A DNA stretch of 64,000 nt from Biomaibacter acetigenes. GTDB taxonomy: Bacteria > Bacillota > Thermosediminibacteria > Thermosediminibacterales > Tepidanaerobacteraceae. Location: positions 2,108,001 to 2,172,000 of the forward strand of contig NZ_CP033169.1 of NCBI RefSeq assembly GCF_003691585.1, in the 5' to 3' direction. The position numbers were made by a program, and so were the translations under genes. The notes under the pieces are model-generated. The model saw only the letters and a list, made by a program, of their open reading frames with translations, was not told the DNA's origin and ran no database searches. This document shows, in pieces, positions 1 through 46,344 of the stretch (position 1 is the first letter of the stretch; every line of letters begins with the position of its first letter).

Positions 1-145
1 CCTGGGCGGGAGTTACTCCTGTAGCTCTTGCTATATGCTGGGAAGATACGGTGTTAATTCCCTTTTCATCAGCCTCTTTTAAATACCGTGAATACAGTGA
101 TAACCTGCCTATAGTAGCATCGGGTATCTTGAACTTCTTAAACAT
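1..145 (-). CDS. rex: Redox-sensing repressor Rex, N-terminal part (runs off window)
   Basis: Only the first 48 codons are present; the gene continues beyond base 1. The translation begins MFKKFKIPDATIGRLSLYSR and continues with SSQHIARATGVTPAQ. This matches the winged-helix DNA-binding domain of Rex, whose family pattern is IPxATIxRLPLYxRYL followed by an ATGVxPAQ helix. The ATG at 145-143 is preceded by an AAGGGAG ribosome binding site near 155-161, which fixes the start. Rex proteins sense NADH/NAD+ through a C-terminal Rossmann domain that is not visible here and repress fermentation and respiration genes. The gene lies downstream of the ABC importer in the same orientation, with a gap of about 110 bp, so it may have its own promoter. 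Confidence 0.85.
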   Translation of the reverse strand, partial: MFKKFKIPDATIGRLSLYSRYLKEADEKGINTVSSQHIARATGVTPAQ

Positions 146-256: not shown

Positions 257-1006
257 TTAACATATCCTTATTTCGCAATATTTCCATCTACAGATAACTT
301 TTTCCACAAAATCCGTAAGCAAAAACAGCAAGAGTCCAATTAGGCTCATTCCCAGAATCCCGGAAAAAAGTTCATTGTAGTCCGCCCGGGTCCATGCATC
401 CATTATGAAATATCCTATTCCACGGGTGGTGGCGAAGGTTTCTGTGAAAAACAACACCGAAAGGGCTGTCCCAAGACTTATCCTCAATGAGGTAAAGATT
501 TCAGGCATGCATGCCGGAACCACCACATGTCTGTAAATGTCGGTTTTGCTGGCACCCAGACTTTTTATGGAATCCAGGCTCTGATACGGGATATTTTTTG
601 AAGCATCCCTTGCGGTAACAACCATATGAAAAAATACAATTATGGATATAAGCAGTATGCGCGGCAAATCCCCTAATCCCAGCAACATAAGCAGCACCGG
701 CAAAAATACAATTTTAGGAATCGGATAAAGGAGCAGTATTACAAAAGAAAAGAAATTATCCACCTTTTGCTCCCGGCCAAGCACCAACCCCATAGGAACT
801 CCAACGCAAAAGGCCAGTATTAAACTGGCAAGGATCCGGTACAGGCTTACTGCCATATGTATTAACATGCCATCTTTCAAGAGATCCGTAAATGTTAAAA
901 TTGTGGTATAGGGTGAAGGTATAACCGGCCCGGCTGTTATAGACAGCCCCTGCCAGATTGCCGCTATGAAAATAGCTGCAAAAATATAATGTTTTATTTT
1001 AATCAT
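257..1006 (-). CDS. ABC transporter permease, NitT/TauT (SsuC/ThiX-like) family
   Basis: This 249-residue polytopic membrane protein has about six hydrophobic segments. The cytoplasmic loop reads SIKSLGASKTDIYRHVVVPA, which is the EAA motif (xxxGAs...xxVxxP) that docks on the ATPase. Length and motif fit the BPD_transp_1 permeases of the nitrate/sulfonate/taurine/thiamine-precursor group. Its ATG (1006-1004) overlaps the ATPase stop (1005-1003) as ATGA, so the two are translationally coupled. It is the last gene of apbE-SBP-ATPase-permease. The substrate cannot be read from the sequence; the neighbourhood suggests a flavin, a thiamine pyrimidine or another cofactor precursor, which is inference. 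Confidence 0.88.
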   Translation of the reverse strand: MIKIKHYIFAAIFIAAIWQGLSITAGPVIPSPYTTILTFTDLLKDGMLIHMAVSLYRILASLILAFCVGVPMGLVLGREQKVDNFFSFVILLLYPIPKIVFLPVLLMLLGLGDLPRILLISIIVFFHMVVTARDASKNIPYQSLDSIKSLGASKTDIYRHVVVPACMPEIFTSLRISLGTALSVLFFTETFATTRGIGYFIMDAWTRADYNELFSGILGMSLIGLLLFLLTDFVEKVICRWKYCEIRIC

Positions 1007-1743
1007 TTGACATACCTCGACATTTTATTCCTTACGAGATTTACTGTTTTATAATGCCTAACGCTCTGCCTGAGTCCCCATCCTTCATTGGATATGATAT
1101 CCATTATTTTGCCCGGAGATGGTGAAAGTATTATAATTTTTTGCCCTAGAAAAACAGCTTCTTCGATGCTATGTGTTACCAGAAGTATTGTCATGGGGTT
1201 TTGCCGCCACAGATCTAAAAGCTCGTGCTGCATGTTTTCCCGGTTGAATGCGTCCAGAGATGAAAAGGGTTCGTCCATCAAGAGTAAGGATGGCGAAAGT
1301 GCCAGGGCCCTCCCTATGGCAACTCTCTGTTTTTGTCCGCCGGATAACTGTCCGGGATAGTGGTGGGCGAAAGGCTTAAGCGACAACTTGTCAAGAATAT
1401 CTCCTACAATCACTCTTAATTTATCAGGATTTTCTTTTCGTATAATCAAACCCAGGGCTATGTTTTGCTCAACTGTTTTCCAGGGAAAAAGTCCAAAATC
1501 CTGTAATATCACCGCCGTATCCCTGGAGGGCCCCTCAACCTTTTTCCCTTTTATTGAAACACTGCCTTCCGTCGGTTTCAGGAGGCCGGCAATGGTATAG
1601 ATGAGGGTGGTTTTTCCACTGCCCGATGGACCGACCATGGTATATATTTTATGGTCCTCAAGAGTTAGATTAATATTCTCCAGGGCTTTTACCCTTGCAT
1701 TTTTAGTAGAGTAGACAACGGATACATTTTCAATTTTAACCAT
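1003..1743 (-). CDS. ABC transporter ATP-binding protein, NitT/TauT family
   Basis: The protein has 246 residues and a complete nucleotide-binding domain. It contains Walker A GPSGSGKTT (about residue 39), a Q-loop in ILQDFGLFPWKTVEQN, signature LSGGQKQRVAIGRAL, Walker B LLLMDEPFSSLD and H-loop LLVTHSIEEAV. The family (SsuB/TauB/ThiZ) energises import together with a BPD_transp_1 permease and an NMT1/THI5-like binding protein, which are exactly its two neighbours. The start overlaps the end of the binding-protein gene by 8 bp. No missing catalytic residue is seen. Confidence 0.92.
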   Translation of the reverse strand: MVKIENVSVVYSTKNARVKALENINLTLEDHKIYTMVGPSGSGKTTLIYTIAGLLKPTEGSVSIKGKKVEGPSRDTAVILQDFGLFPWKTVEQNIALGLIIRKENPDKLRVIVGDILDKLSLKPFAHHYPGQLSGGQKQRVAIGRALALSPSLLLMDEPFSSLDAFNRENMQHELLDLWRQNPMTILLVTHSIEEAVFLGQKIIILSPSPGKIMDIISNEGWGLRQSVRHYKTVNLVRNKMSRYVK

Positions 1744-2728
1744 TTCTTTCTGTTCCCTTAAGATTACAATTATTTTTTATGAAGGTATCATCCACCAGAT
1801 CTTCATATGTCAGCTGCTTCTTCAACATTTCTTTTGCTTTCATCCAATCCAGAACTTGTTTTATATCACTATCCGTTGGGACCGAAAGCCCTGTATAATG
1901 AGGAAACTCGAAGGTTCCAGCCACCTCTTCCGGAAAGTGGGCGGTGGCAAGAACATCCCTGAAATTTTCGGGATTGGCATTGATATCGGAAGTTACCTTT
2001 TCATATGCTTTATATACTTTTTTTATTGAATCCTCTTTGTTATTTATAGCCTTTACAGTAAATAGCATTATGCCGGGGGCCAGGGCCGTATCTTTGGTAG
2101 AAAGCAACACCCTTGCTCCGGATTTTACCGCAAGGGTTGATAAGGGCTCCGGCAGGCACGCCGCATCCACCTTGCCGGATTTGAGCATTTCAAGCCTTAC
2201 AGGCATCTGGGCTACCACAACCTTTTCTATTTCGCCGTCGGAAAAACCCTTTTGGGAAAGCATTCTATCTACCACATATTCTATTATGGTGTTTTTAGAC
2301 AGAGCCACTTTTTTGCCTTTAAGCCCACTTACATCCGTTATGCCTGAATTCGGTGCAGCCAGGATATCATATTTCCCATTGGTTATGGATGTGATTTTTA
2401 CATCCAGCCCATTTTGAACAGCAAAGGCTGCCGCCAGGATATCCCCCACCTCACCATCTATGGCTCCCCCCTGCAGAGCTGCGTCCCTTTCCACAGGATT
2501 TTTAAAGGAGACCAGTTCTACCTTTACTCCCTCTTTGTTAAAGTATCCTTTAACATCAGCGGCTATAAAAGGAACAGAATCCACGTCCGGCAGTATGCCG
2601 ATTTTTACAACTTCGGAACCAGAGGCAGGCTGCGGTGCAGCATTTTTTTCCGTTACGTTTGTAGCATTAGTACACCCACTCAACCCAAAAAGTAAAAAGA
2701 TAAGCAACAGGACAAACAATTTCTTCAT
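1736..2728 (-). CDS. ABC transporter substrate-binding lipoprotein, NMT1/THI5-like
   Basis: This is a 330-residue secreted lipoprotein. A hydrophobic signal ends in the lipobox LSGC at about residues 16-19, followed by a low-complexity linker. The mature part starts VVKIGILPDVDSVPFIAADV, continues with GYFNKEGVKVELVSF, and has a downstream GLKGKKVALSKN segment. This is the two-lobe periplasmic-binding fold of the NMT1/THI5/SsuA group, whose members bind thiamine pyrimidines, sulfonates, taurine or, in some lineages, riboflavin. It is cotranscribed with its ATPase and permease and lies 61 bp downstream of apbE. The ligand is unknown; a flavin or flavin precursor is attractive because of apbE and the NADH dehydrogenase next door, but this is inference. 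Confidence 0.87.
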   Translation of the reverse strand: MKKLFVLLLIFLLFGLSGCTNATNVTEKNAAPQPASGSEVVKIGILPDVDSVPFIAADVKGYFNKEGVKVELVSFKNPVERDAALQGGAIDGEVGDILAAAFAVQNGLDVKITSITNGKYDILAAPNSGITDVSGLKGKKVALSKNTIIEYVVDRMLSQKGFSDGEIEKVVVAQMPVRLEMLKSGKVDAACLPEPLSTLAVKSGARVLLSTKDTALAPGIMLFTVKAINNKEDSIKKVYKAYEKVTSDINANPENFRDVLATAHFPEEVAGTFEFPHYTGLSVPTDSDIKQVLDWMKAKEMLKKQLTYEDLVDDTFIKNNCNLKGTERNG

Positions 2729-2789
2729 TTTCCCCTATCTCCTTTCAAATTAGTTTTTCTTTAAATAAATAGTGTTTGATTTTGATATT

Positions 2790-3836
2790 TTAATCCGGTA
2801 GTTTTTCCAGCCTAAACTGGCTGTTTATTATTTTAAAATTATATTTTTCTATTCCGGAACTTGTATATACTTTGCGGTCTTTTGTTACAAATACCGCCTC
2901 TATGTGCGGCACCTTTTCCACATATTTCATGCCGTCTTTTAATCCCAGGGCAAAAACCGTTGTAGAAAGGCCGTCGGCATCTATGGAGCTGTCAGATATG
3001 ATCGTGACGCTTACCAGGCCATTGTCTACGGGATAGCCTGTAGATGTATCCAGAATATGGTGATACCTTTTTCCATCTTTTATAAAGTATCTTTCATATA
3101 CTCCAGATGTAACAAGTGTCTTATCTGCCACATCTACCGTGGCAAAAGTATTTCCCCTGGGTTCAAAGGGGTCCTGGATTCCTATTTTCCATGGGGAACC
3201 GTTTGGTTTTTTGCCAAGGACATATATATTCCCACCCAGGTCGGCGGCGGCGCTTTTTATACCATTCGCTTTTAGTATCCTGACCACTTCGTCGGCGGCA
3301 TAACCCTTGGCAATAGCCCCTAAATCAATGGCCATGCCGGGTTCCTTTAGCATGACGCTGTTTTCATTTTCATTTAGGACCACATTTTTATAGTTTATAT
3401 GTCCCAGGGCATTTTTAATTTCCGCTCGGGAGGGCACCCGGGCTTTATCTGTGCCTATACCCCACAATTTAACCAGAGGGCCTATGGTTATATCAAACCT
3501 GCCATGGGAACTTTGAGAATAATAAAGGCCTTTTTTTATGACATAAAAGGTATCGGGGCTCACCTTTTGAAAATCTTTACCCGCTTTTTTGTTTATATCT
3601 ATAACTTCGCTGTCGTCGCCGCTGGCAGTCATCTTTTTTTGAATATCATTTATCCTGTCATAAGCCTGATCAATGGCATTTGAAGCATTATCACCGTAGG
3701 CAGTTATCTGGATTAAAGTATCCAGCAAAAAATTCGTTTTCGTAACGGGATTTTCCGCTTTGGTTCTTCCGCAGGATGTAAGAAGCACTGCCACCAGGAT
3801 TATTACGAAAATTTTTAGAGATGTCTTTGTTGTCAA
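2790..3836 (-). CDS. apbE: FAD:protein FMN transferase, ApbE lipoprotein
   Basis: This 348-residue ApbE has an N-terminal signal with lipobox LTSC (about residues 19-22), so it is anchored outside the membrane. Family landmarks are all present: FLLDTLIQITAYGD near the start, DLGAIAKGYAADEVV, DLGGNIYVLG, and HHILDTSTGYPV near residue 260. ApbE enzymes split FAD and attach FMN through a phosphodiester to Thr or Ser in secreted flavoproteins, using Mg2+. The gene is first in the operon apbE-SBP-ATPase-permease and is divergent from the NADH dehydrogenase across a 416-bp spacer, which suggests a joint electron-transfer role. No target protein with the usual FMN-attachment motif is encoded in this window. 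The start is ATG at 3836. Confidence 0.93.
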   Translation of the reverse strand: MTTKTSLKIFVIILVAVLLTSCGRTKAENPVTKTNFLLDTLIQITAYGDNASNAIDQAYDRINDIQKKMTASGDDSEVIDINKKAGKDFQKVSPDTFYVIKKGLYYSQSSHGRFDITIGPLVKLWGIGTDKARVPSRAEIKNALGHINYKNVVLNENENSVMLKEPGMAIDLGAIAKGYAADEVVRILKANGIKSAAADLGGNIYVLGKKPNGSPWKIGIQDPFEPRGNTFATVDVADKTLVTSGVYERYFIKDGKRYHHILDTSTGYPVDNGLVSVTIISDSSIDADGLSTTVFALGLKDGMKYVEKVPHIEAVFVTKDRKVYTSSGIEKYNFKIINSQFRLEKLPD

Positions 3837-4252
3837 TTATAACGGCGCACGCATGAAATGGCTCTACGCTGTCGCCTTTCCTCCCTTTATGTCGGTGTTT
3901 TAATATATTGGTTGTTTTAAAGAATACTTAACATAATTCTCCATAAATTTTCAAATTCCTGCACACATATAACATGTAAATTTTTTTATACAGAATGTTT
4001 TTTTATGCAAACACATGTCAAATAAAATAATAATTTTATATTTATAAAGAAGGAAAAAACATTTTTTCATAGAATATATATAAAATAAATACAAAATACA
4101 TTGTATCACAAATGTATTAAAAAATGAACATGTTGTTTCTTTACAATTTTGTCGAAGCAGTGTATACTATAATTGAATCAGTAATGATTATTATTTTATC
4201 TTAGCTTGTGATGGTTACTACAAATAATAATAAAAATTGAGGGGGAAGGGCA
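3837..4252. other. Divergent intergenic region apbE / NADH dehydrogenase
   Basis: This 416-bp, very AT-rich spacer carries the promoters of both divergent units. I looked for FMN, TPP and other riboswitch cores and for a Rex-like TTGTGA palindrome and saw none. Apart from the promoter-like elements at 4140-4168 there is no gene-like reading frame and no strong hairpin. Confidence 0.6.
4140..4168 (+). promoter_or_regulatory. Putative sigma-A promoter of the NADH dehydrogenase gene
   Basis: TTTACA at 4140-4145 and TATACT at 4163-4168 are separated by 17 bp and lie about 85 bp upstream of the ATG at 4253. A GAGGGGGAAGG ribosome binding site lies just before the ATG. Confidence 0.55.
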
Positions 4253-5977
4253 ATGGATGAAAAAAAGAAAATTGTTGTTCTGGGAGGTGGATTTGGGGGT
4301 CTTACCGCTGCTCAAGCACTGGATAGATTCTTAAGGCGAAATAAGAATGTGGAGATAACACTGATAAATAAGAGCCCAAATCAAATTTACCTTACCGAGT
4401 TGCACGAAGTAGCGGGAAATCGTATCCCGCCGGAAGGCGTGGAGTATTCTCTCGAAACCGCCCTTGAAGAAACCAGAATTAAACTTGTTGTCGATGAAAT
4501 TCAAAAAGCCGATTTAAAAGAAAGAAAACTTTACGGTATCGATGGTGTATATTCCTTCGACTACCTGGTTCTGGCCTGCGGTAGCGAACCCACTTTTTTT
4601 GGCATCCCGGGAATGAAAGAGAACGCATTCACATTATGGTCCCATGAAGATGCCCTGAGAATAAGGGAACAGATCATAAAAATGTTCAAAGCCGCCAGCA
4701 CGGAACCTGATGAAGAAAAGAGGCGCGAGTACCTCACCTTTGTAGTGGGCGGCGGCGGATTTACGGGCATTGAAATGGTGGGCGAGTTGGTGGAGTGGAT
4801 TGAAGACCTCTGCCTTGATTACAACATAAAACGTCACGAGGTTTCACTCATGGTCATAGAAGCGCTGCCCAAAATCCTGCCCAATCTTTCCGACAGTTTA
4901 ATTGAAAAAGCCACCAATTATCTGAAGAGAAAGGGCGTCCGTATCCTTACCAACTCTCCTATTACCAATGTATCTGCGGATTCCTTGACTCTCAAGTCGG
5001 GTGAAGTCATCAAAACCCGCACCCTCATCTGGACCGGTGGAGTTCAGGCCAATAGTTTTGTGGCATCAATGGGGCTTAAGACTTCTGGCCGTGGTAGAGT
5101 TACGGTAAATGAGTACATGGAGACCAGTGAACCGGGAATATATGCCATAGGAGATAACTGTTGCTTTATCGGAGAGGATGGCAAACCCATGCCGGCACTG
5201 GTAGAATCGGCAATGCAGTCAGCCCACTGTGCGGCACACAACATCGCCGCTGAAATAAACAATAAACCCAAAAAAGCGCTCAAATTACATCTACACGGAA
5301 ACATGGTTTCTATAGGTGCGGAGTACTGTGTGGCCGATGTCATGGGATTTAAACTTACTGGTTTTCTTGCTACAGCTATAAAACACCTGGCTGATATGCA
5401 TTACTTATTCGGCATCAGCGGCATAGGATTCATAATGGATTATATAGATCACCAGTTCTTCCGCAAGACCCGCAACAAACCTACGGTTATTAAACATATT
5501 GGCGTCAGCACCAGTACTGCCTGGCTGGCATTGCTCAGGATATACCTGGGTTATAGGTGGCTTATGTCAGGTCTGGAGAAAGTGAACACAGGCTGGCTTT
5601 CAGCAGGTAACAAACTGGTGGCCGGAGCCTCTACAGCTCCTATTGGCCCCAATACGCCTGAATGGTATGTGAACTTCATGGAAAAAGTGGTATTCCCCCA
5701 TGCGCTGCTGTTCCAGACCATGATCACTCTTGGAGAACTTGCCATAGGTATTTGTCTAATACTGGGCCTCTTCACCGTACTGGCAGCTCTGGGCTCCATA
5801 TTCATGAATATCAACTTTATGATTTCCGGTTCCGGGGACATGTGGTTCCTGGTGGTTTCCGTAGTAATGCTGGCTGGTGCCGGACGGTCTTTTGGCCTTG
5901 ACTACTACGTGATTCCCTATATCTCTAGAGTGGTCAAAAGGTTCCTGCGCCGCGGAGAAATAAAACTGATAATGTAA
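4253..5977 (+). CDS. NADH dehydrogenase (NDH-2 type) with C-terminal DoxX-like membrane domain
   Basis: This is a 574-residue flavoprotein. Residues 1 to about 340 are a two-dinucleotide-fold NDH-2: FAD motif VVLGGGFGGLTAA at residues 8-20, NAD motif VVGGGGFTGIEMVGE near 164, and the second FAD motif YAIGDNC near 297. Residues about 420-560 form at least four membrane spans of DoxX/TQO-small-subunit type. These include WLALLRIYLGYRWLMSGLEK and later LGELAIGICLILGLF. Ordinary NDH-2 proteins are about 400 residues and peripheral, so this one is a fusion that is embedded in the membrane. It should oxidise NADH and pass electrons to a quinone or a membrane acceptor. Some extracellular-electron-transfer NDH-2 enzymes, such as the Listeria Ndh2, also carry extra membrane helices. 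The gene is monocistronic, with a terminator directly after it. Confidence 0.88.
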   Translation: MDEKKKIVVLGGGFGGLTAAQALDRFLRRNKNVEITLINKSPNQIYLTELHEVAGNRIPPEGVEYSLETALEETRIKLVVDEIQKADLKERKLYGIDGVYSFDYLVLACGSEPTFFGIPGMKENAFTLWSHEDALRIREQIIKMFKAASTEPDEEKRREYLTFVVGGGGFTGIEMVGELVEWIEDLCLDYNIKRHEVSLMVIEALPKILPNLSDSLIEKATNYLKRKGVRILTNSPITNVSADSLTLKSGEVIKTRTLIWTGGVQANSFVASMGLKTSGRGRVTVNEYMETSEPGIYAIGDNCCFIGEDGKPMPALVESAMQSAHCAAHNIAAEINNKPKKALKLHLHGNMVSIGAEYCVADVMGFKLTGFLATAIKHLADMHYLFGISGIGFIMDYIDHQFFRKTRNKPTVIKHIGVSTSTAWLALLRIYLGYRWLMSGLEKVNTGWLSAGNKLVAGASTAPIGPNTPEWYVNFMEKVVFPHALLFQTMITLGELAIGICLILGLFTVLAALGSIFMNINFMISGSGDMWFLVVSVVMLAGAGRSFGLDYYVIPYISRVVKRFLRRGEIKLIM

Positions 5978-6100: not shown

Positions 6101-7744
6101 TCAACCCAATAGCCTTTCTATGGTTTTTTGAAGAATCATGGGCATGGCATCGAGCGAATAAGATTGGCTTATTCTTTCGGTCAATTTATGGGCATCTTTG
6201 CCGTACGGGCCTATATTTAATACAGGCATGCTTATTTGTTGTATTGCCTCTACCGGCAGTGAGTATTTTTTCGGCCAGGCTGGCATGTTATTTACCAGTT
6301 TCCTGATGCTCTCTTCGTTTTTCGATATGCTGCAGTAGCTAAGGTCTGATATATATGGGTAAAACTTTTTGACAACTATTTTGTATTCATATTTCTCCCT
6401 GACTTCTTTCACGGCTTGTTCTACTGCATCTAGCAATTTTGCTTCTCTTTGATTTGCCCCTTCCACAAAAATGTGAGGATAGAAAGGCGGGGCAAAGTAG
6501 ATTATGATTAGCGGATTTTTGTCCGAATAATGCTTATGTACTTCCTGCACTATTCTCAGGGAAAATTCTCTGTCATCCGCACCCATCTTTAGTAATTCAT
6601 CAGTTAGTGTTTTGAGTTTGTTATCAATTTCCTTTCCTATTTCACCTTTAACATTTTTGTACAGTTCTTCGAAGGACAAAACCCTTGTCCGCCAGGGAAG
6701 TCTTTTATATGGGGTGCCGCTCAGCTCGCAATATTTCCTGTAATTTTCATTGAGCATTCTTATGGTATTTTCAAAGGCCATGATAGCTTTTTGTTTAAGT
6801 TTCTCCAGGACCTCATCCGGCTGGCTTATGTGTGTGGCAAAATTAAAATACAGGTTTACAGCATTCACCGTTTGCACCGAATATTCCGTCTTCAGGTCCC
6901 TCTGGTGGAGGCTTATGGGAGGAAGGGTGGCCTCACCACCGGCTACATCACATAGGTCGTAGTTTAAATCTACCTCTTTCATTAACTCCGATGCCAGCAA
7001 ATTCGCATCAAGGCCGCTGAAGGCTTCCCCTACATGGGTTTCCTTTCCGTATACATAAAAACAGGGTAGAAGTTTACCCACAGTCCCAATATACACATAT
7101 TTATTTTCATCTCCGGTATACTGGCCTGTCATGTAATCAGTATCTATTGCTGCTATAAATTCCCATCCCTTTTCCTTTGAAAGTTCTGCCAGATCCTGAA
7201 CAGCAGAGAGCATTCCTGCCGAATTTCCCTCTTCATCCGGCACTCCGATAAAGACAAGATTTCCCTGAAGTTTTTCAAGCTGTTCCGAAAACTCTTCTAT
7301 CATCACCATCTGAGAAGCTACCCCTGTCTTCATATCAAAAATTCCCCTGCCAAATATCCAGTTATCGGACTTCAGGTCATTTGTGATTTCTTCATCAAAA
7401 CTTTTTTTGCTCAACATCTGCTTTAATATTTCAGGTTCCGTGGCATATTCCTTGAGGTCCCCATAATCATCCGTACCAACTGTATCTATGTGGCCGAGAA
7501 GTAATACTGTATTGACAGAAGCTTTTTTACCCTCCAGGAAGGCCATAACATATTTTCTATTCAAAGAATCATTTTTAAGGTCCTTAAGCTGAAGATTCCT
7601 GGAATTTTGTATAAAATAATCCACTTTTTTTAGATAGTCATATATATATTCAACTGCTTTTATTTCTCCACGGGTTCCAACCACACTGGCAATTCTGGTT
7701 AACTCCAGCGATAGCCTTTTTATTTTTTCACCCATATCCGGCAT
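6101..7744 (-). CDS. rocB: RocB-like M20-family peptidase/deacylase
   Basis: This 547-residue protein is of RocB type, an M20-fold metallohydrolase found with arginine and ornithine utilisation genes. Metal-ligand motifs are visible: LLGHIDTVGTDD near residue 80 (HxD), GVPDEEGNSAGML near 165 (the catalytic Glu pair), and a C-terminal metal-binding region. The length fits RocB, which is longer than ordinary M20 peptidases at about 400 residues. The true substrate of RocB is not firmly known; a role in the arginine/ornithine pathway is taken from its neighbours. It is the second gene of an operon with ornithine racemase (28-bp gap). It should be driven by the sigma-54-type promoter at 8862-8878 and the RocR-like activator. 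Confidence 0.85.
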   Translation of the reverse strand: MPDMGEKIKRLSLELTRIASVVGTRGEIKAVEYIYDYLKKVDYFIQNSRNLQLKDLKNDSLNRKYVMAFLEGKKASVNTVLLLGHIDTVGTDDYGDLKEYATEPEILKQMLSKKSFDEEITNDLKSDNWIFGRGIFDMKTGVASQMVMIEEFSEQLEKLQGNLVFIGVPDEEGNSAGMLSAVQDLAELSKEKGWEFIAAIDTDYMTGQYTGDENKYVYIGTVGKLLPCFYVYGKETHVGEAFSGLDANLLASELMKEVDLNYDLCDVAGGEATLPPISLHQRDLKTEYSVQTVNAVNLYFNFATHISQPDEVLEKLKQKAIMAFENTIRMLNENYRKYCELSGTPYKRLPWRTRVLSFEELYKNVKGEIGKEIDNKLKTLTDELLKMGADDREFSLRIVQEVHKHYSDKNPLIIIYFAPPFYPHIFVEGANQREAKLLDAVEQAVKEVREKYEYKIVVKKFYPYISDLSYCSISKNEESIRKLVNNMPAWPKKYSLPVEAIQQISMPVLNIGPYGKDAHKLTERISQSYSLDAMPMILQKTIERLLG

Positions 7745-7772
7745 AACTCTCCTCCTCTTTTAAAAAGTGGAA

Positions 7773-8837
7773 CTATACTATTTTCTTGCCCACATACTCC
7801 GATGTCATAAGGCTCAGCATGGCACCATAGGACATGCGGAATTGGATGATAGAACCCACCTGGATATTCCTGCTATTTGTTACATCCACCAACAGGTGGT
7901 CGCTGCTGCCCCCCAGTATTTCCATAGTTTCATCCACCGGTGTTAAACCCTCGATCCTGCAGTCCTGCTTTCCCAGAGCCACTATGGCCCTTTTCATGGG
8001 GCCTTTGTCCACAAATACCGGAATATTTCCAAAGGCATCCCGACCTATTTCTCCTATAGGACTTGAAGGTTTTACCTTTACTTCAATTACTTCGGTCTTG
8101 AGTACCATAGTATCCTGCAGGGTCCCCGGAACCTTTCGGAAGTTGGTCACATCGGTGCCCAGCAGTATGGCCTCCCCTATCCTGAACTGGTTTATGCCCG
8201 GCGCAAGACCGCCTTTTTCTAAAAGTTTCAGGGTCGCCGTATTGCCCCCTGACAGCGTTTTTACTTTTATACCATACCTTTTTTCTATGTCCCCTGCAAG
8301 ATCTACCAGAACTTTTGTATTTTCGTAACTTGCCAAAATACCTCCGTAACATCCCAGATTGGTGCCAAGGCCTTCAAATTCTACTCCCGGCAGTCCGAGA
8401 ATCTTTCCCACCATATCCAGCACATCCTCCGGCATAACTCCTTCTCTCAGGTCCCCCACATCCACCATTAAAATTACCCTGTGCTTCTTCCCCTGAATCA
8501 CGGATTCCTGTGAAAGCGCCTTAATGACATCTATTTCCGAGTTCAGGCTGCCGTCAGCCCATCGTACAACTTCAGCTACCTCGGAGAGCATGGGAATCCT
8601 TATAAGGTAAATGGGGCAGTTTAAACTATTTTGCCTCATGGAAATAATGTTTTGAATCCTGGAGTCTCCCAATTTTTTTATCCCTGCTTGAAGCATGGCA
8701 TTTACCACCGGCGTCATGGCACAGACCCCTTTTGACACTCCCATGACCTCGATATTATGTTTTGAACAAAAATCCACTAAATACCCGGCATTATGCCGGA
8801 TTTTTTCAATGTAAATTTCCACCAGGGGGTAGTTCAT
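7773..8837 (-). CDS. orr: Ornithine racemase family PLP enzyme (alanine/ornithine racemase)
   Basis: This is a fold-III PLP racemase of about 354 residues from the ATG at 8837. That start has a GGAGGT site at 8845-8850 with 7-nt spacing; an upstream in-frame start lacks one. The N-terminal VEIYIEKIRHNAGYLVDFC and VMGVSKGVCAM contain the PLP lysine in the VxKGVC context typical of clostridial ornithine racemase. Later GGNTATLKLL and the GxNQFRIGEAILLG segment form the phosphate-binding site. In Clostridium sticklandii the homologue interconverts L- and D-ornithine before D-ornithine aminomutase. Here it is cotranscribed with rocB and divergent from a COG2403 protein, all next to a RocR-like regulator, which supports ornithine rather than alanine as substrate. 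Confidence 0.85.
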   Translation of the reverse strand: MNYPLVEIYIEKIRHNAGYLVDFCSKHNIEVMGVSKGVCAMTPVVNAMLQAGIKKLGDSRIQNIISMRQNSLNCPIYLIRIPMLSEVAEVVRWADGSLNSEIDVIKALSQESVIQGKKHRVILMVDVGDLREGVMPEDVLDMVGKILGLPGVEFEGLGTNLGCYGGILASYENTKVLVDLAGDIEKRYGIKVKTLSGGNTATLKLLEKGGLAPGINQFRIGEAILLGTDVTNFRKVPGTLQDTMVLKTEVIEVKVKPSSPIGEIGRDAFGNIPVFVDKGPMKRAIVALGKQDCRIEGLTPVDETMEILGGSSDHLLVDVTNSRNIQVGSIIQFRMSYGAMLSLMTSEYVGKKIV

Positions 8838-8861
8838 GTCACCAACCTCCGATAAATTATT

Positions 8862-8878
8862 AAGCAATTTTTATACCA
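8862..8878 (-). promoter_or_regulatory. Putative sigma-54 (-24/-12) promoter for orr-rocB
   Basis: Read on the minus strand the site is TGGTAT-AAAAA-TTGC, with GG and GC separated by exactly 10 bp as required for sigma-54. It deviates at two positions from TGGCAC. It lies about 25 bp upstream of the orr ATG, and the GGAGGT site falls between them, so the leader is very short. Confidence 0.65.
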
Positions 8879-10425: not shown

Positions 10426-11838
10426 TCATCTTATCCCATATTTTTTCATGTAGTATTGCAGCAATTGTCTTTTAATGCCCATTTTTTGTGCAGCTTTGGT
10501 AATATTTCCCTGGGTGCTATTTATTACTTCAACTATAAGGTTCTTTTCGTAATCAAAAATTCTTTTTTTAAACTGAACCCCCGTAAAAACGGGGGTCTCT
10601 TTTTCAATATAATTCTTAAAAGCCCCGAAACTTAAAAATCTAAGGTGCTCCCTTTTAATCTGACCTTCATCCACATAATTCATAAGTGCTTCTATAACAT
10701 GCTCAAGCTCCCGCACATTTCCGGGCCATGTGTACTCCTGAAAAATATCTATAACATCCTCCTGGATACCCGAAACATTTTTATTAAATTTCTCATTATA
10801 TTTTTTTATAAAATAATATACGAGGTCATATATATCCTCCCGCCTTTCCCTTAGAGGCGGGATTTCCACATATATAACACTGAGCCTGAAAAAAAGATCT
10901 TGTTTTAGCTTCCCGCTTTCCAGAAGCTTCGAAGGCTTTTCATTGGTGGTAGCGATAATTCTCACATCCACAGGAATATCTGTCACATCTCCGAGGCGCC
11001 GGACCACTCCTTCCTGAAGCACTCGCAGCAATTTTGTCTGGAGGGCATGACCCATGTTGTTTATCTCATCAAGGAGAATAGTTCCCCCATCCGCCTGCTC
11101 AAATAGGCCTGGCTTGTCTATAGCGCCGGTAAAACTACCCCTGGTTGTGCCGAAAAGAATGCCCTCAAGGATACTTTCCGGCAGGGTAGCACAGTTTTGC
11201 GCTATAAACGGCATATTTTTTCTGGGACTTGCATTGTGGATGCTCTGGGCAAAAAGCTCTTTTCCCGTTCCTGTTTCACCATAAATCAAAATGGAAGAAG
11301 TGGTTTGGGAGGCTTTTTTTAATATGCCGATTATCTCCTGAATCCTATTATTTTTTCCTATAATGTTGTCAAAATTATATTTCAATCCCACATTTTTTGA
11401 TCGAGTAGATTTGCACCCAAAGCCTTGCTGAAGGTTAACGACTTTTTCACTGAGGTCAAGGATAACCGATATATCCCGGGACACTTCAAGGGCCCCAATT
11501 ATCTCACTCCTATCAGTGATAGGTATGGTGGTATTCACCGTTTTTATCTGCTTTCCCTTATAGTTAAAGTATTGCTGAAATCTTCCTTTAATCGGTTTTC
11601 CCGTCATTACTACCCGGTAAAGGGTGCTTTCTTCAGGGGTAATGGAAGGAAATACTTCAAAAATAGTCTTGCCTACCACCAGGCTTGCATCCAATCCCTC
11701 AAAGTGGGAAAGAGTCCTGTTATAAAACATAATTCGGCATTCCCGGTCTACTATTAAAATCCCCTCGTCGAGAGTATCAAAAATATTTTTGATGCTTTCC
11801 AATGATAGTATATTTTTTAAATCATGCTGCTCCGGCAC
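10426..11838 (-). CDS. rocR: RocR-like sigma-54-dependent transcriptional activator (PAS-AAA+-Fis HTH)
   Basis: This is an enhancer-binding protein of about 470 residues. I place the start at GTG 11838 behind a long G-rich ribosome binding site; the frame is open further upstream, but that stretch is unlike the family and contains the putative operator. A PAS domain (FDTLDEGILIVDRECRIMFYN) spans roughly residues 20-120. The AAA+ domain has Walker A GETGTGKE, a sigma-54 contact loop GSFTGA instead of GAFTGA, and Walker B GGTILLDEIN. The C-terminal Fis-type HTH reads NITKAAQKMGIKRQLLQYYM. The Ser variant of the contact loop is, as I recall, also seen in RocR proteins. It should activate orr-rocB and the COG2403 gene in response to ornithine or citrulline, by analogy with Bacillus RocR. 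Confidence 0.85.
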   Translation of the reverse strand: MPEQHDLKNILSLESIKNIFDTLDEGILIVDRECRIMFYNRTLSHFEGLDASLVVGKTIFEVFPSITPEESTLYRVVMTGKPIKGRFQQYFNYKGKQIKTVNTTIPITDRSEIIGALEVSRDISVILDLSEKVVNLQQGFGCKSTRSKNVGLKYNFDNIIGKNNRIQEIIGILKKASQTTSSILIYGETGTGKELFAQSIHNASPRKNMPFIAQNCATLPESILEGILFGTTRGSFTGAIDKPGLFEQADGGTILLDEINNMGHALQTKLLRVLQEGVVRRLGDVTDIPVDVRIIATTNEKPSKLLESGKLKQDLFFRLSVIYVEIPPLRERREDIYDLVYYFIKKYNEKFNKNVSGIQEDVIDIFQEYTWPGNVRELEHVIEALMNYVDEGQIKREHLRFLSFGAFKNYIEKETPVFTGVQFKKRIFDYEKNLIVEVINSTQGNITKAAQKMGIKRQLLQYYMKKYGIR

Positions 11839-11894
11839 ATTTCCACCCCCCCCCGAACAAGATTTTGCCGAAAACTGCAAAGGATGCAAATAAA

Positions 11895-11911
11895 CGCAAA
11901 ATATTTTTGCT
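11895..11911. promoter_or_regulatory. Putative RocR autoregulatory site
   Basis: GCAAA-ATATT-TTTGC (11896-11910) has the same core and spacing as the site at 9005-9021 and lies 57 bp upstream of the regulator start. Two further TGCAAA half-sites lie at about 11875-11890. Confidence 0.5.
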
Positions 11912-11968
11912 TTAATTGAAAAGAGATTTTTTCCCGTGAACTTTATTTTTTGTAGAATAATGTATCTT

Positions 11969-13216
11969 TTAATCAAGACTATGAATAAAGATTCCACTCC
12001 TCAACTTGGGTTCAAACCACGTGGATTTTGGAGGCATAATTTGTCCTGCATCGGCTATGCTCATCAAATCTTCCATGGAAGTGGGATACATAGAAAAGGC
12101 TACTTTCATTTCCCCGCTGTTTACTCTGCGCTCCAGCTCTTCTAAACCTTTTATACCGCCTACGAAATCTATTCTGCTGTCAGTCCTTGGGTTCGAGATG
12201 CCTAAAATAGGTGCAATGATATTATTTTGAAGGATGGAAACATCAAGCCTTGCCACAGGATCATCCTCATTAAAAATACCACTTTTGGTGCGAAAGCCGT
12301 ACCACTTTCCATTTATGTACATCCCAAAAGTATGCTTTTCTACCGGCTTATATGGGGCCCTGTCCCTGTATATGACATCAAATTTTTCTCCAATTTTTCG
12401 TATAAGTTCATCTTCCATAAGACCGTTTAAATCCATTACCACCCTGTTATATTCCAGTATGGTAAGTTCATCATCGGGGAAAATTACAGATAGGAAATAA
12501 TTATATCCTTCATTGCCGGTAAAATCCGGATTTTCCATTCTTCTCATCAGCCCAACTTTGACAGCGGCTGCGGCTCTGTGATGGCCATCGGCGATGTACA
12601 ATGATGAAACTCCGGAAAACAATTCCACCATCTTTTTAATAACGCTTTCATTATCTATAACCCATACCGTTTGGGCAACACCATCGTCGGATATAAAATC
12701 ATAAACCGCAGGATTTTCGGCAGACCATTCATCGATGATAGCGGTGATTTCCGGATTCTTTCGGTATGCCATCAGGATTGGCCCGGTATGGGCATTGGTA
12801 TATTTTACATGGTTTATCCTATCCTGTTCCTTTGGAGCCAGGGTGTTTTCATGCTTTTTTATAATATTATTCGTATAATCGTCGATGGAAACGCAAGTGA
12901 CCAGGCCCTTCTGGGATTTGCCACTTTTCTCCAAACGGTATATATAGAGGTATTCCGCTGCATCTTTAACAAATACTCCTTTTTGGATCATTGCCTTAAG
13001 ATTTTCCCGGGCTTTCTCATAAACCCTATCATCATGAGGGTTAATAGATTGATCAAAATCTATCTCCGGCTTGTCTACATGCAAAAAGGATATTTCATTT
13101 GCTTTTACCATTTCTCTAGCTTCGTCGGTACTCACCACATCATAGGGTAGTGCAGCCACCTTTGCCACAAGTCCCGGTAATGGCCTGATGGCATTAAATG
13201 GTTTTATAGTAGCCAT
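11969..13216 (-). CDS. DUF1015 family protein (COG4198)
   Basis: This 415-residue protein begins MATIKPFNAIRPLPGLVAKV followed by AALPYDVV, the typical N-terminus of the DUF1015 family. Further family landmarks are LYIADGHHRAAAAVKVG near residue 205 and a C-terminal IDFVGGIKGLEELERRV. The family is widespread in Clostridia and other anaerobes, is cytosolic, and has no established reaction; the DGHHR motif suggests a catalytic or metal site. The length is normal. It lies between the oppF terminator and the RocR-like gene with spacers of more than 100 bp on each side, so it is probably monocistronic. I give no function. Confidence 0.85.
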   Translation of the reverse strand: MATIKPFNAIRPLPGLVAKVAALPYDVVSTDEAREMVKANEISFLHVDKPEIDFDQSINPHDDRVYEKARENLKAMIQKGVFVKDAAEYLYIYRLEKSGKSQKGLVTCVSIDDYTNNIIKKHENTLAPKEQDRINHVKYTNAHTGPILMAYRKNPEITAIIDEWSAENPAVYDFISDDGVAQTVWVIDNESVIKKMVELFSGVSSLYIADGHHRAAAAVKVGLMRRMENPDFTGNEGYNYFLSVIFPDDELTILEYNRVVMDLNGLMEDELIRKIGEKFDVIYRDRAPYKPVEKHTFGMYINGKWYGFRTKSGIFNEDDPVARLDVSILQNNIIAPILGISNPRTDSRIDFVGGIKGLEELERRVNSGEMKVAFSMYPTSMEDLMSIADAGQIMPPKSTWFEPKLRSGIFIHSLD

Positions 13217-41028: not shown

Positions 41029-41062
41029 AATTTTAGCCCAAAAAAGATAATAAACCATCATA

Positions 41063-41132
41063 CCTTATAGCCAGGGTAGTTTACGGCCACCCGGTAGAGA
41101 CTTCCGGTCCATATTCCCGGAATTATATAAGG
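41063..41132 (-). promoter_or_regulatory. Purine riboswitch aptamer, guanine class
   Basis: On the minus strand the leader has P1 CCTTATA/TATAAGG and the conserved P2 and loop parts TATAATTCC and ATATGG. These are followed by AAGTCTCTACC (J2/3), GGCCGTAAAC (loop 3) and CTGGCTATAAGG. The ligand-specifying base before TATAAGG is C, which predicts guanine or hypoxanthine rather than adenine. The usual U48 is C here; that base is flipped out in known structures, so binding should be kept. Ligand binding would form the terminator at 40994-41028 and shut off purine synthesis. Confidence 0.95.
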
Positions 41133-41172
41133 TTCTATTAATGTGTATTCGATTTTTAAACTTTACATTCTA

Positions 41173-45083: not shown

Positions 45084-46344
45084 GGCAAAACTCCTTTCTG
45101 CTAGTTTTCCATAGAGAAAATTGATACGGATGTAAAAACTTTAGCGCTGGTGATTCGTGACGGCCAAAGGCACCGTAGAGTGAAGCCAAAGACGTTCTTA
45201 AGCTTGAAACGAGCGGAGCAGGGGCGGCATGCACGGATGCATGCCGGCCGGCATTGAGGCAGGACGCCGAATTGCCGGCGTAACCCTGCGGAGCGAAGGA
45301 GCAAGCTTTAGAACGTCTGGCTGAACGGTCAGGTGCTAGGCCGTCACAATCACATAAGACGTTTTTTTCAAATACCCTGATAAAGTTTTTTCCGAGAATT
45401 TTTGCTATGTCCTCATCGGAATACCCGCGGTAAACCAGGCCCCTGGTGAGATTTATCATCTTTTCACAGGATTCAAGCCCATTCACATTGCCATCGTATC
45501 CGTCAAAATCGGAACCTATGCCGACATGCTCGACTCCTGCAATATTTACAAAATAATCTATGACATCCAGTATATTTTCGATAGAACCCTGCTGCCCTCC
45601 ATAACTGGAAAAGTAAAAGGTGGCCCCGATGACCCCGCCCTTCTCAGCAACAGCTTTAATCTGCCCGTCATCCAGGTTTCGTGGGATATCCATGAATTTC
45701 CTGGGCAGGGAATGGGATATTATGAAGGGCTTTTGGGCCACATCCAGCACATCCCAGAACCCCTTCGGAGAGATATGAGCAATATCCACCACCATGTCGA
45801 GCCTTTCCATTTCTTTTACCACCTCTACACCAAAATCCGAAAGGCCGCCACCGCTTCTCAAGTCCTGGGCGCCATCGGCAATGGCGTTCCGGTGGTTCCA
45901 TGTCAGCACCAGGGAACTTACCCCCAGTTCCCTGTATATCTTCAACATGTGGATATCTCCCTGAAGGGCTTCTCCGCCCTCTATGCTAAGCAATGCGGCT
46001 ATTTTCCCATTTTCCGCAGCCTTTTTTATATCTCCTGCGGCACCGGCAAAACATACATCTTCACTATTTTGCTCTATTTGCTTCTTGAATATAGATATCC
46101 CTTTCATGGTGCTGTGAACCGCATCATGGTACCACTCGGGGCGCACGAAAACTGCGAACACCTGAGCTTTTACGCCACCGGATTTCAGCCTGGGGATGTC
46201 TATGTGACCTTTTTCTGATTTTTCACCGAGGCTGCGCTCTCCGTCGATGACGGATAGTATGGTGTCACAGTGGGCGTCAAAAACTATACTCTCTTTATGG
46301 AGCCTGCGGGCTCTCTCTTCCTGGTCCTCACTGAGTTTAAACAA
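45052..46344 (-). CDS. Membrane dipeptidase (M19), C-terminus replaced by a palindromic element
   Basis: The start is TTG 46344 behind AAAGGAGG. The first 325 residues are a normal M19 renal-dipeptidase-type enzyme. VFDAHCDTILS has the HxD zinc ligands, LLSIEGGEALQGD the bridging Glu, and FIISHSLPRKFMDIPRNLDD a His ligand; HVGIGSDFDGYDG is late in the barrel. The family normally ends soon after ILGKNFIRVFEKNVL. Here the frame instead enters the palindrome at about 45350 and continues for about 100 residues of Ser/Ala/Arg-rich sequence to 45052, overlapping nfo. The tail is thus derived from the repeat. It probably hydrolyses dipeptides; activity with this tail is uncertain. Confidence 0.87.
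   Translation of the reverse strand: MFKLSEDQEERARRLHKESIVFDAHCDTILSVIDGERSLGEKSEKGHIDIPRLKSGGVKAQVFAVFVRPEWYHDAVHSTMKGISIFKKQIEQNSEDVCFAGAAGDIKKAAENGKIAALLSIEGGEALQGDIHMLKIYRELGVSSLVLTWNHRNAIADGAQDLRSGGGLSDFGVEVVKEMERLDMVVDIAHISPKGFWDVLDVAQKPFIISHSLPRKFMDIPRNLDDGQIKAVAEKGGVIGATFYFSSYGGQQGSIENILDVIDYFVNIAGVEHVGIGSDFDGYDGNVNGLESCEKMINLTRGLVYRGYSDEDIAKILGKNFIRVFEKNVLCDCDGLAPDRSARRSKACSFAPQGYAGNSASCLNAGRHASVHAAPAPLVSSLRTSLASLYGAFGRHESPALKFLHPYQFSLWKTSRKEFCHAFWRPYFHF
45150..45352. repeat. Long palindromic element at the 3' end of the dipeptidase gene
   Basis: Outer arms are GTGATTCGTGACGGCC (45151-45166) and the reverse complement of about 45341-45352 (GTGATTGTGACGGCC on the minus strand). Further matching blocks follow inwards: AGACGTTCTTAAGCTTG with AGACGTTCTAAAGCTTG, and GCGGAGCAGGG with GCTCCGCAGGG. 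The centre is very GC-rich (GCATGCCGGCCGGCAT). GCGGAGCGAAGGAGC at 45288-45302 resembles the cores of the elements at 35411 and 39935. The GC-rich composition contrasts with the flanking genes. Confidence 0.8.

Follow-up and report, generated by a model that had tools for sequence, protein, structure and literature searches.

The stretch analysed here (the window) comprises 64,000 nucleotides of the 3.40 Mb, single-contig genome of Biomaibacter acetigenes (C1:2108001-2172000). Near its start lies a locus combining a type II NADH dehydrogenase, a flavin transferase and an ATP-binding cassette (ABC) importer, considered here for a possible role in flavin-based extracellular electron transfer (FLEET). 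The plus-strand gene ndh2 (4253-5977) stands opposite a minus-strand unit in the order apbE-sbp-ATPase-permease-rex, where sbp encodes the substrate-binding lipoprotein of the importer. The features are as follows.

1-145, minus strand: 5' part of rex, encoding an NADH-sensing repressor; the full gene (L002:9513-10145) extends beyond the window
257-1006, minus strand: permease of the NMT1/SsuA-type ABC importer (BPD_transp_1, PF00528, E 3.5e-24)
1003-1743, minus strand: ATPase of the importer (PF00005, E 5.9e-32), with a 4-nt overlap with the permease start
1736-2728, minus strand: substrate-binding lipoprotein sbp, NMT1/NMT1_2 (PF09084, E 7e-19), with an LSGC lipobox
2790-3836, minus strand: ApbE/FmnB-type FAD:protein FMN transferase, a lipoprotein (PF02424, E 6.5e-96), with an LTSC lipobox
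3837-4252, no strand: divergent promoter region common to both units, 26% G+C
4140-4168, plus strand: promoter-like site, by consensus match only
4206-4223, plus strand: Rex-like operator TTGTGATGGTTACTACAA, 47 nt ahead of the ndh2 ATG, 10 of 12 consensus positions
4253-5977, plus strand: Ndh2, type II NADH dehydrogenase with a C-terminal DoxX-type membrane tail (PF07992, PF07681, PF04173)
5513-5950, plus strand: DoxX-type tail of Ndh2, residues ~421-566, by Pfam DoxX/DoxD and conserved columns in 18 Ndh2 proteins

In Ndh2, Pfam recognises Pyr_redox_2, DoxX (residues 425-521, E 6.4e-9) and DoxD (residues 424-560, E 1.3e-8). Residues 4-395 match solved NDH-2 enzymes (4nwz/5na1), and the AlphaFold2 (AF2) model has a helical tail from about residue 411, with lower confidence there; a viral fold search with Ndh2 returned nothing useful. 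The best Protein Data Bank (PDB) match of ApbE is 7esa (E 4e-98), and the genome search found apbE in one copy, with no second ApbE. The overlaps of start and stop codons at 1003-1006 and 1736-1743 suggest that sbp, ATPase and permease fit one transcript. A first-pass annotation, made from the sequence by a model, had described an NDH-2 with a DoxX-like tail divergent from a lipoprotein ApbE and an NMT1-type importer; the domains, structural matches, lipoboxes and gene overlaps bear out this description.

Proposed electron-export genes in the genome and its relatives

Known FLEET loci, such as those of Listeria monocytogenes and lactic acid bacteria, comprise Ndh2, FmnB/ApbE, PplA, EetA/B, DmkA/DmkB and a flavin energy-coupling factor (ECF) transporter, and their Ndh2 works with demethylmenaquinone (DMK)- or menaquinone (MK)-type quinones. 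Each FLEET part looked for in the B. acetigenes genome was present (Ndh2, ApbE, PplA, EetA/EetB, DmkA and HepT), scattered over the chromosome. The secreted proteins with flavin mononucleotide (FMN)-attachment motifs and the demethylmenaquinone genes that the first-pass annotation had proposed to look for were both found. A 281-aa PplA-type lipoprotein (L016:9334-10179) contains two FMN_bind domains with the motifs DAVTGATH and DAVTGATG; its best NCBIfam match is PplA, at 197.6 bits, below the cut-off of 325. A 459-aa lipoprotein (L017:8684-10063; C1:751.2 kb) has four FMN_bind domains, all bearing a flavinylation motif, and could possibly act as a multi-flavin wire. A tandem of EetA- and EetB-type genes (L285:2389-3336; C1:2046.5 kb) adjoins maf and radC, where the pair may have another role, and a DmkA-type prenyltransferase (L118) and HepT (L117) were also found. 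Some 20 kb from apbE, on the far side of HydABC, lies a complete rnfCDGEAB (L018:6694-11920), presumably also served by the sole ApbE, whose potential clients are RnfG, RnfD and the two lipoproteins of 281 and 459 aa. A DNA pattern for the FMN motif, run over the whole genome, was uninformative except for RnfD.

As in the Listeria system, Ndh2 has a C-terminal membrane extension, judged by its domain matches, conserved columns and AF2 model. Also shared are a secreted ApbE, a PplA-type FMN lipoprotein and homologues of EetA/B, DmkA and HepT, which form a single locus in relatives. Unlike in Listeria, the parts are scattered here, and an NMT1/SsuA-type ABC importer and the late futalosine-type genes mqnP-ubiD-ubiX are added.

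The one-locus arrangement occurs in relatives (e.g., L133-L136 and L142), not in B. acetigenes itself. The scans used alignment A2, since A1, built from all members, proved too varied to scan with. In the sister family of Tepidanaerobacteraceae (Fervidicola, Thermovorax and Thermosediminibacter), ndh2 is grouped with hepT, pplA and dmkA, and the importer joins this group in five genomes, in four of them visibly after ubiD-mqnP-ubiX. The fullest layout occupies one contig in G026 (L134), where ndh2 faces FMN_bind lipoprotein-apbE-eetA-eetB-hepT-ubiD-mqnP-sbp-ATPase-permease. Variants of the locus occur in Petroclostridium, L142, L143, Oceanirhabdus, Marinisporobacter and several Clostridium species, and the layout of the window, with apbE-sbp opposite ndh2, recurs in Oceanirhabdus and Marinisporobacter. 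The link between the two divergent units, already suspected in the annotation, is upheld by their being neighbours in relatives from several families, and its electron-export idea is supported because these relatives carry the parts and the importer in one locus.

Menaquinone genes and the importer

The importer accompanies late menaquinone genes. It is in line with ubiD-mqnP-ubiX in sister-family genomes, G026, G050 and Spirochaetales genomes; in lineages outside the family, sbp-ATPase-permease comes immediately behind these genes, and sbp accompanies the quinone genes in two Spirochaetales genomes. Of 80 sbp loci, 24 had mqnP on the locus (within 10 kb), where about 0.5 would be expected. 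In G029 (L124), the position taken elsewhere by the importer, directly after ubiD-mqnP-ubiX, is occupied by mqnE-mqnA-mqnC. In the Spirochaetales loci L190 and L200, the importer has two oppositely oriented permease genes next to ubiD-mqnP-ubiX.

Searches for ring-building enzymes covered the B. acetigenes genome, its family and the sister family. They gave no PF02621 match (MqnA/D) and no TIGR03699 match above the cut-off (MqnC); the radical-SAM matches were weak, whereas MqnE would be expected to score strongly. MenB was likewise absent above its cut-off; the best match reached 167.5 bits against 342.7, and the matches are therefore taken as generic enoyl-CoA hydratases. B. acetigenes retains mqnP, ubiD, ubiX and dmkA. 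Its UbiD scores above the menaquinone decarboxylase cut-off (TIGR03701), and the UbiA-type protein scores highest with the MqnP model, yet below the cut-off of that model. These genes resemble the late futalosine steps MqnP/MqnL/MqnM (PMC4746308), with a UbiA-type prenyltransferase, a UbiD-type and a UbiX-type gene; unlike in the futalosine pathway, MqnA/D and MqnC were not found, and the importer stands in the gene-order place of mqnE-A-C.

Co-occurrence points the same way. The presence of sbp and of an mqnP-type UbiA agrees in 29 of 31 relatives (14 with both, 15 with neither; Fisher 8.6e-7, uncorrected for kinship). Within the family, the importer tracks mqnP and not ndh2 or apbE, in a double dissociation. 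G000, G001, G004 and G009 have both importer and mqnP, although ndh2 is gone in G004 (L112) and split into three frames in G009 (L067:8922-10586), both of which retain apbE. Conversely, G003, G007, G008 and G011 keep ndh2, have apbE followed directly by rex, and have neither importer nor mqnP; some of these assemblies are incomplete, and the apbE-rex junction was nevertheless read through. MqnC was found in none of 25 importer-linked genomes versus 14 of 15 unlinked ones (Fisher 6.5e-10, again uncorrected for kinship), the 40 sbp-bearing genomes having been chosen by linkage prior to looking at MqnC.

Head-group import is proposed because the cell is without every ring-building enzyme tested. 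We consider it probable that the locus belongs to a FLEET system dispersed over the chromosome of a clostridium that depends on an external quinone precursor, with the importer supplying the naphthoate head group. Ndh2 would transfer electrons from NADH to (demethyl)menaquinone in the membrane, ApbE would attach FMN to PplA-type lipoproteins (and to RnfG/RnfD), and the PplA-type lipoproteins would pass electrons outward. The importer would bring in a soluble head group, most likely 1,4-dihydroxy-6-naphthoate and less likely 1,4-dihydroxy-2-naphthoate (DHNA), which MqnP would prenylate and UbiD/UbiX would then decarboxylate.

Several observations weigh against this interpretation. In B. acetigenes, mqnP and ubiD lie 80 kb from the importer, and G003, G007, G008 and G011, with ndh2 and no importer, must obtain the quinone head group otherwise. 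The tree offers only three to four independent contrasts, so that an independent-pairs test was underpowered and not significant, and G038 is a counter-example, having the linkage plus a full mqnE-A-C set. Close relatives of sbp in Negativicutes are unlinked and stand beside MqnC; therefore, the cargo there may differ, or the importer may merely supplement synthesis. Within this group, Sporomusa, Pelosinus and Selenomonadaceae (L139-L198) have a closely related importer that has no quinone genes beside it, mostly in genomes with MqnC.

Many bacteria use quinones that they cannot synthesise, with a gap at the step of uptake. According to Ravcheev and Thiele, importers for soluble precursors of menaquinone ought to exist and still await annotation (PMC4746308). 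A close parallel is the extracellular electron transfer (EET) of Lactiplantibacillus plantarum that depends on exogenous DHNA (PMC10746273, PMC9888254), which shares the EET genes, the lack of naphthoate synthesis and the predicted dependence on outside quinones. However, the quinone uptake pathways of L. plantarum are stated as yet to be identified (PMC10746273), whereas a dedicated importer is proposed here. The open-licence literature yielded no described naphthoate importer and no paper on such an arrangement, in keeping with the annotation, which had not recognised it. On balance, we lean towards seeing here a candidate first ABC importer dedicated to a precursor of the menaquinone ring, as part of a quinone-scavenging module: in many Clostridia and some spirochaetes, sbp-ATPase-permease together with mqnP-ubiD-ubiX would stand in for naphthoate synthesis and supply flavin-based electron export. 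If so, a named transporter family would make quinone cross-feeding readable from genomes and connect it directly with extracellular electron transfer.

Cargo of the importer and alternative explanations

The binding protein itself is the proposed binder of the naphthoate quinone precursor. Its AF2 model (predicted local distance difference test score, pLDDT, 88.9) has SsuA, NrtA, CmpA, TauA, PqqT and THI5 as fold neighbours and, lower down, MqnD and related enzymes. With a single-sequence query (phmmer), its nearest PDB match is PqqT of Methylobacterium extorquens (9b1u; E 1.3e-8), a binder of a quinone carboxylate, pyrroloquinoline quinone (PQQ), with a dissociation constant of 50 nM (PMC12124388). 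This match is a hint only as to the cargo: with a family-profile query PqqT is not the top PDB match, by fold (Z 26) it is one among many, and identity to sbp in the structure alignment is 18-19%. A role of sbp as a replacement for MqnD, which has the same fold (Z 19.7), was considered and dropped, since sbp, a lipoprotein, comes with an ABC ATPase and permease of its own; the phosphorylase gene mqnZ (described in PMC4746308) may already cover the missing MqnD.

Ligands of the fold family to which sbp belongs include many small anions and planar aromatics, so the importer might carry another aromatic acid, or a compound resembling a quinone, that MqnP/UbiD/UbiX use, such as 4-hydroxybenzoate. 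Such a cargo would suit an importer whose genes line up with those of a prenyltransferase and a UbiD decarboxylase. We regard it as unlikely, however, given the menaquinone-specific score of UbiD, the preference of the UbiA-type protein for the MqnP model despite its sub-threshold score, and the quinones used by known FLEET Ndh2 enzymes. Slightly less credence still is given to a housekeeping unit in which ApbE serves Rnf, Ndh2 is an ordinary NADH dehydrogenase, and an SsuA-like importer of sulfonate or a similar anion was placed by chance. The nearby rnfCDGEAB with its FMN sites and the single apbE fit this explanation, as does the best NCBIfam family of sbp, SsuA (SsuA_fam). Yet that match, at 129.5 bits, falls below the curated cut-off of 163.5 for membership of the SsuA/TauA sulfonate importers, and importer, quinone genes, ndh2, apbE, pplA-type genes and eetAB are linked repeatedly in separate families. 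Moreover, since PplA-type lipoproteins exist, Rnf is not the sole likely client of ApbE; service to Rnf as the only role of ApbE was rejected on the two further FMN_bind lipoproteins.

The first-pass annotation had assigned flavin handling to the importer, and flavin uptake (riboflavin or a different flavin) to supply ApbE and FMN lipoproteins, a RibXY-like role, is the least probable of the alternatives weighed. The importer does adjoin apbE in four family genomes, as well as in Oceanirhabdus and Marinisporobacter, and G001 and G004 (99% complete) are without RibH, so that in these two the importer may have a flavin role. However, the riboflavin operon ribDEBAH (ribD-ribE-ribBA-ribH) of B. 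acetigenes is complete and preceded by an FMN riboswitch, and RibH is present in 20 of 26 importer-bearing genomes. Neither an FMN nor a thiamine pyrophosphate (TPP) riboswitch was found in the window, hence none at the importer, and neither of the marks of a RibXY-type importer, FMN riboswitch control or a link to absent riboflavin synthesis, was seen. Importer presence follows mqnP/ubiD rather than apbE, ndh2 or missing riboflavin synthesis, and relatives with apbE and ndh2 that lack mqnP also lack the importer. Because the genome makes riboflavin and the importer follows the quinone genes, the flavin role is unsupported, and as the principal explanation it was rejected.

Rex and neighbouring features

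The rex gene that the annotation had seen next door is indeed adjacent, as a 210-aa open reading frame on the importer strand, 111 bp past the permease. As a correction to the annotation, rex closes the same-strand unit and is thus probably co-transcribed with the importer; the permease-rex order also occurs in G001, G004 and G009. A Rex-like site precedes ndh2 at 39-49 nt in six Tepidanaerobacteraceae genomes, matching 10-11 of 12 consensus positions, and none was found upstream of ndh2 in the sister family or in Clostridium. With rex as the last gene of the unit opposite, this site, a consensus match only, hints that Rex could control ndh2.

Beyond rex, regulator-like genes and HydABC follow on the same strand. 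On the other side of the locus, a pair of M20 peptidase and ornithine-racemase-like genes (6101-8867 and 10426-11997), with a PrdR-like sigma-54 activator nearby, points to an amino-acid fermentation context. Further into the window, Rfam identifies a purine riboswitch at 41048-41150 (minus strand) and a TwoAYGGAY RNA motif at 45176-45330 (plus strand).

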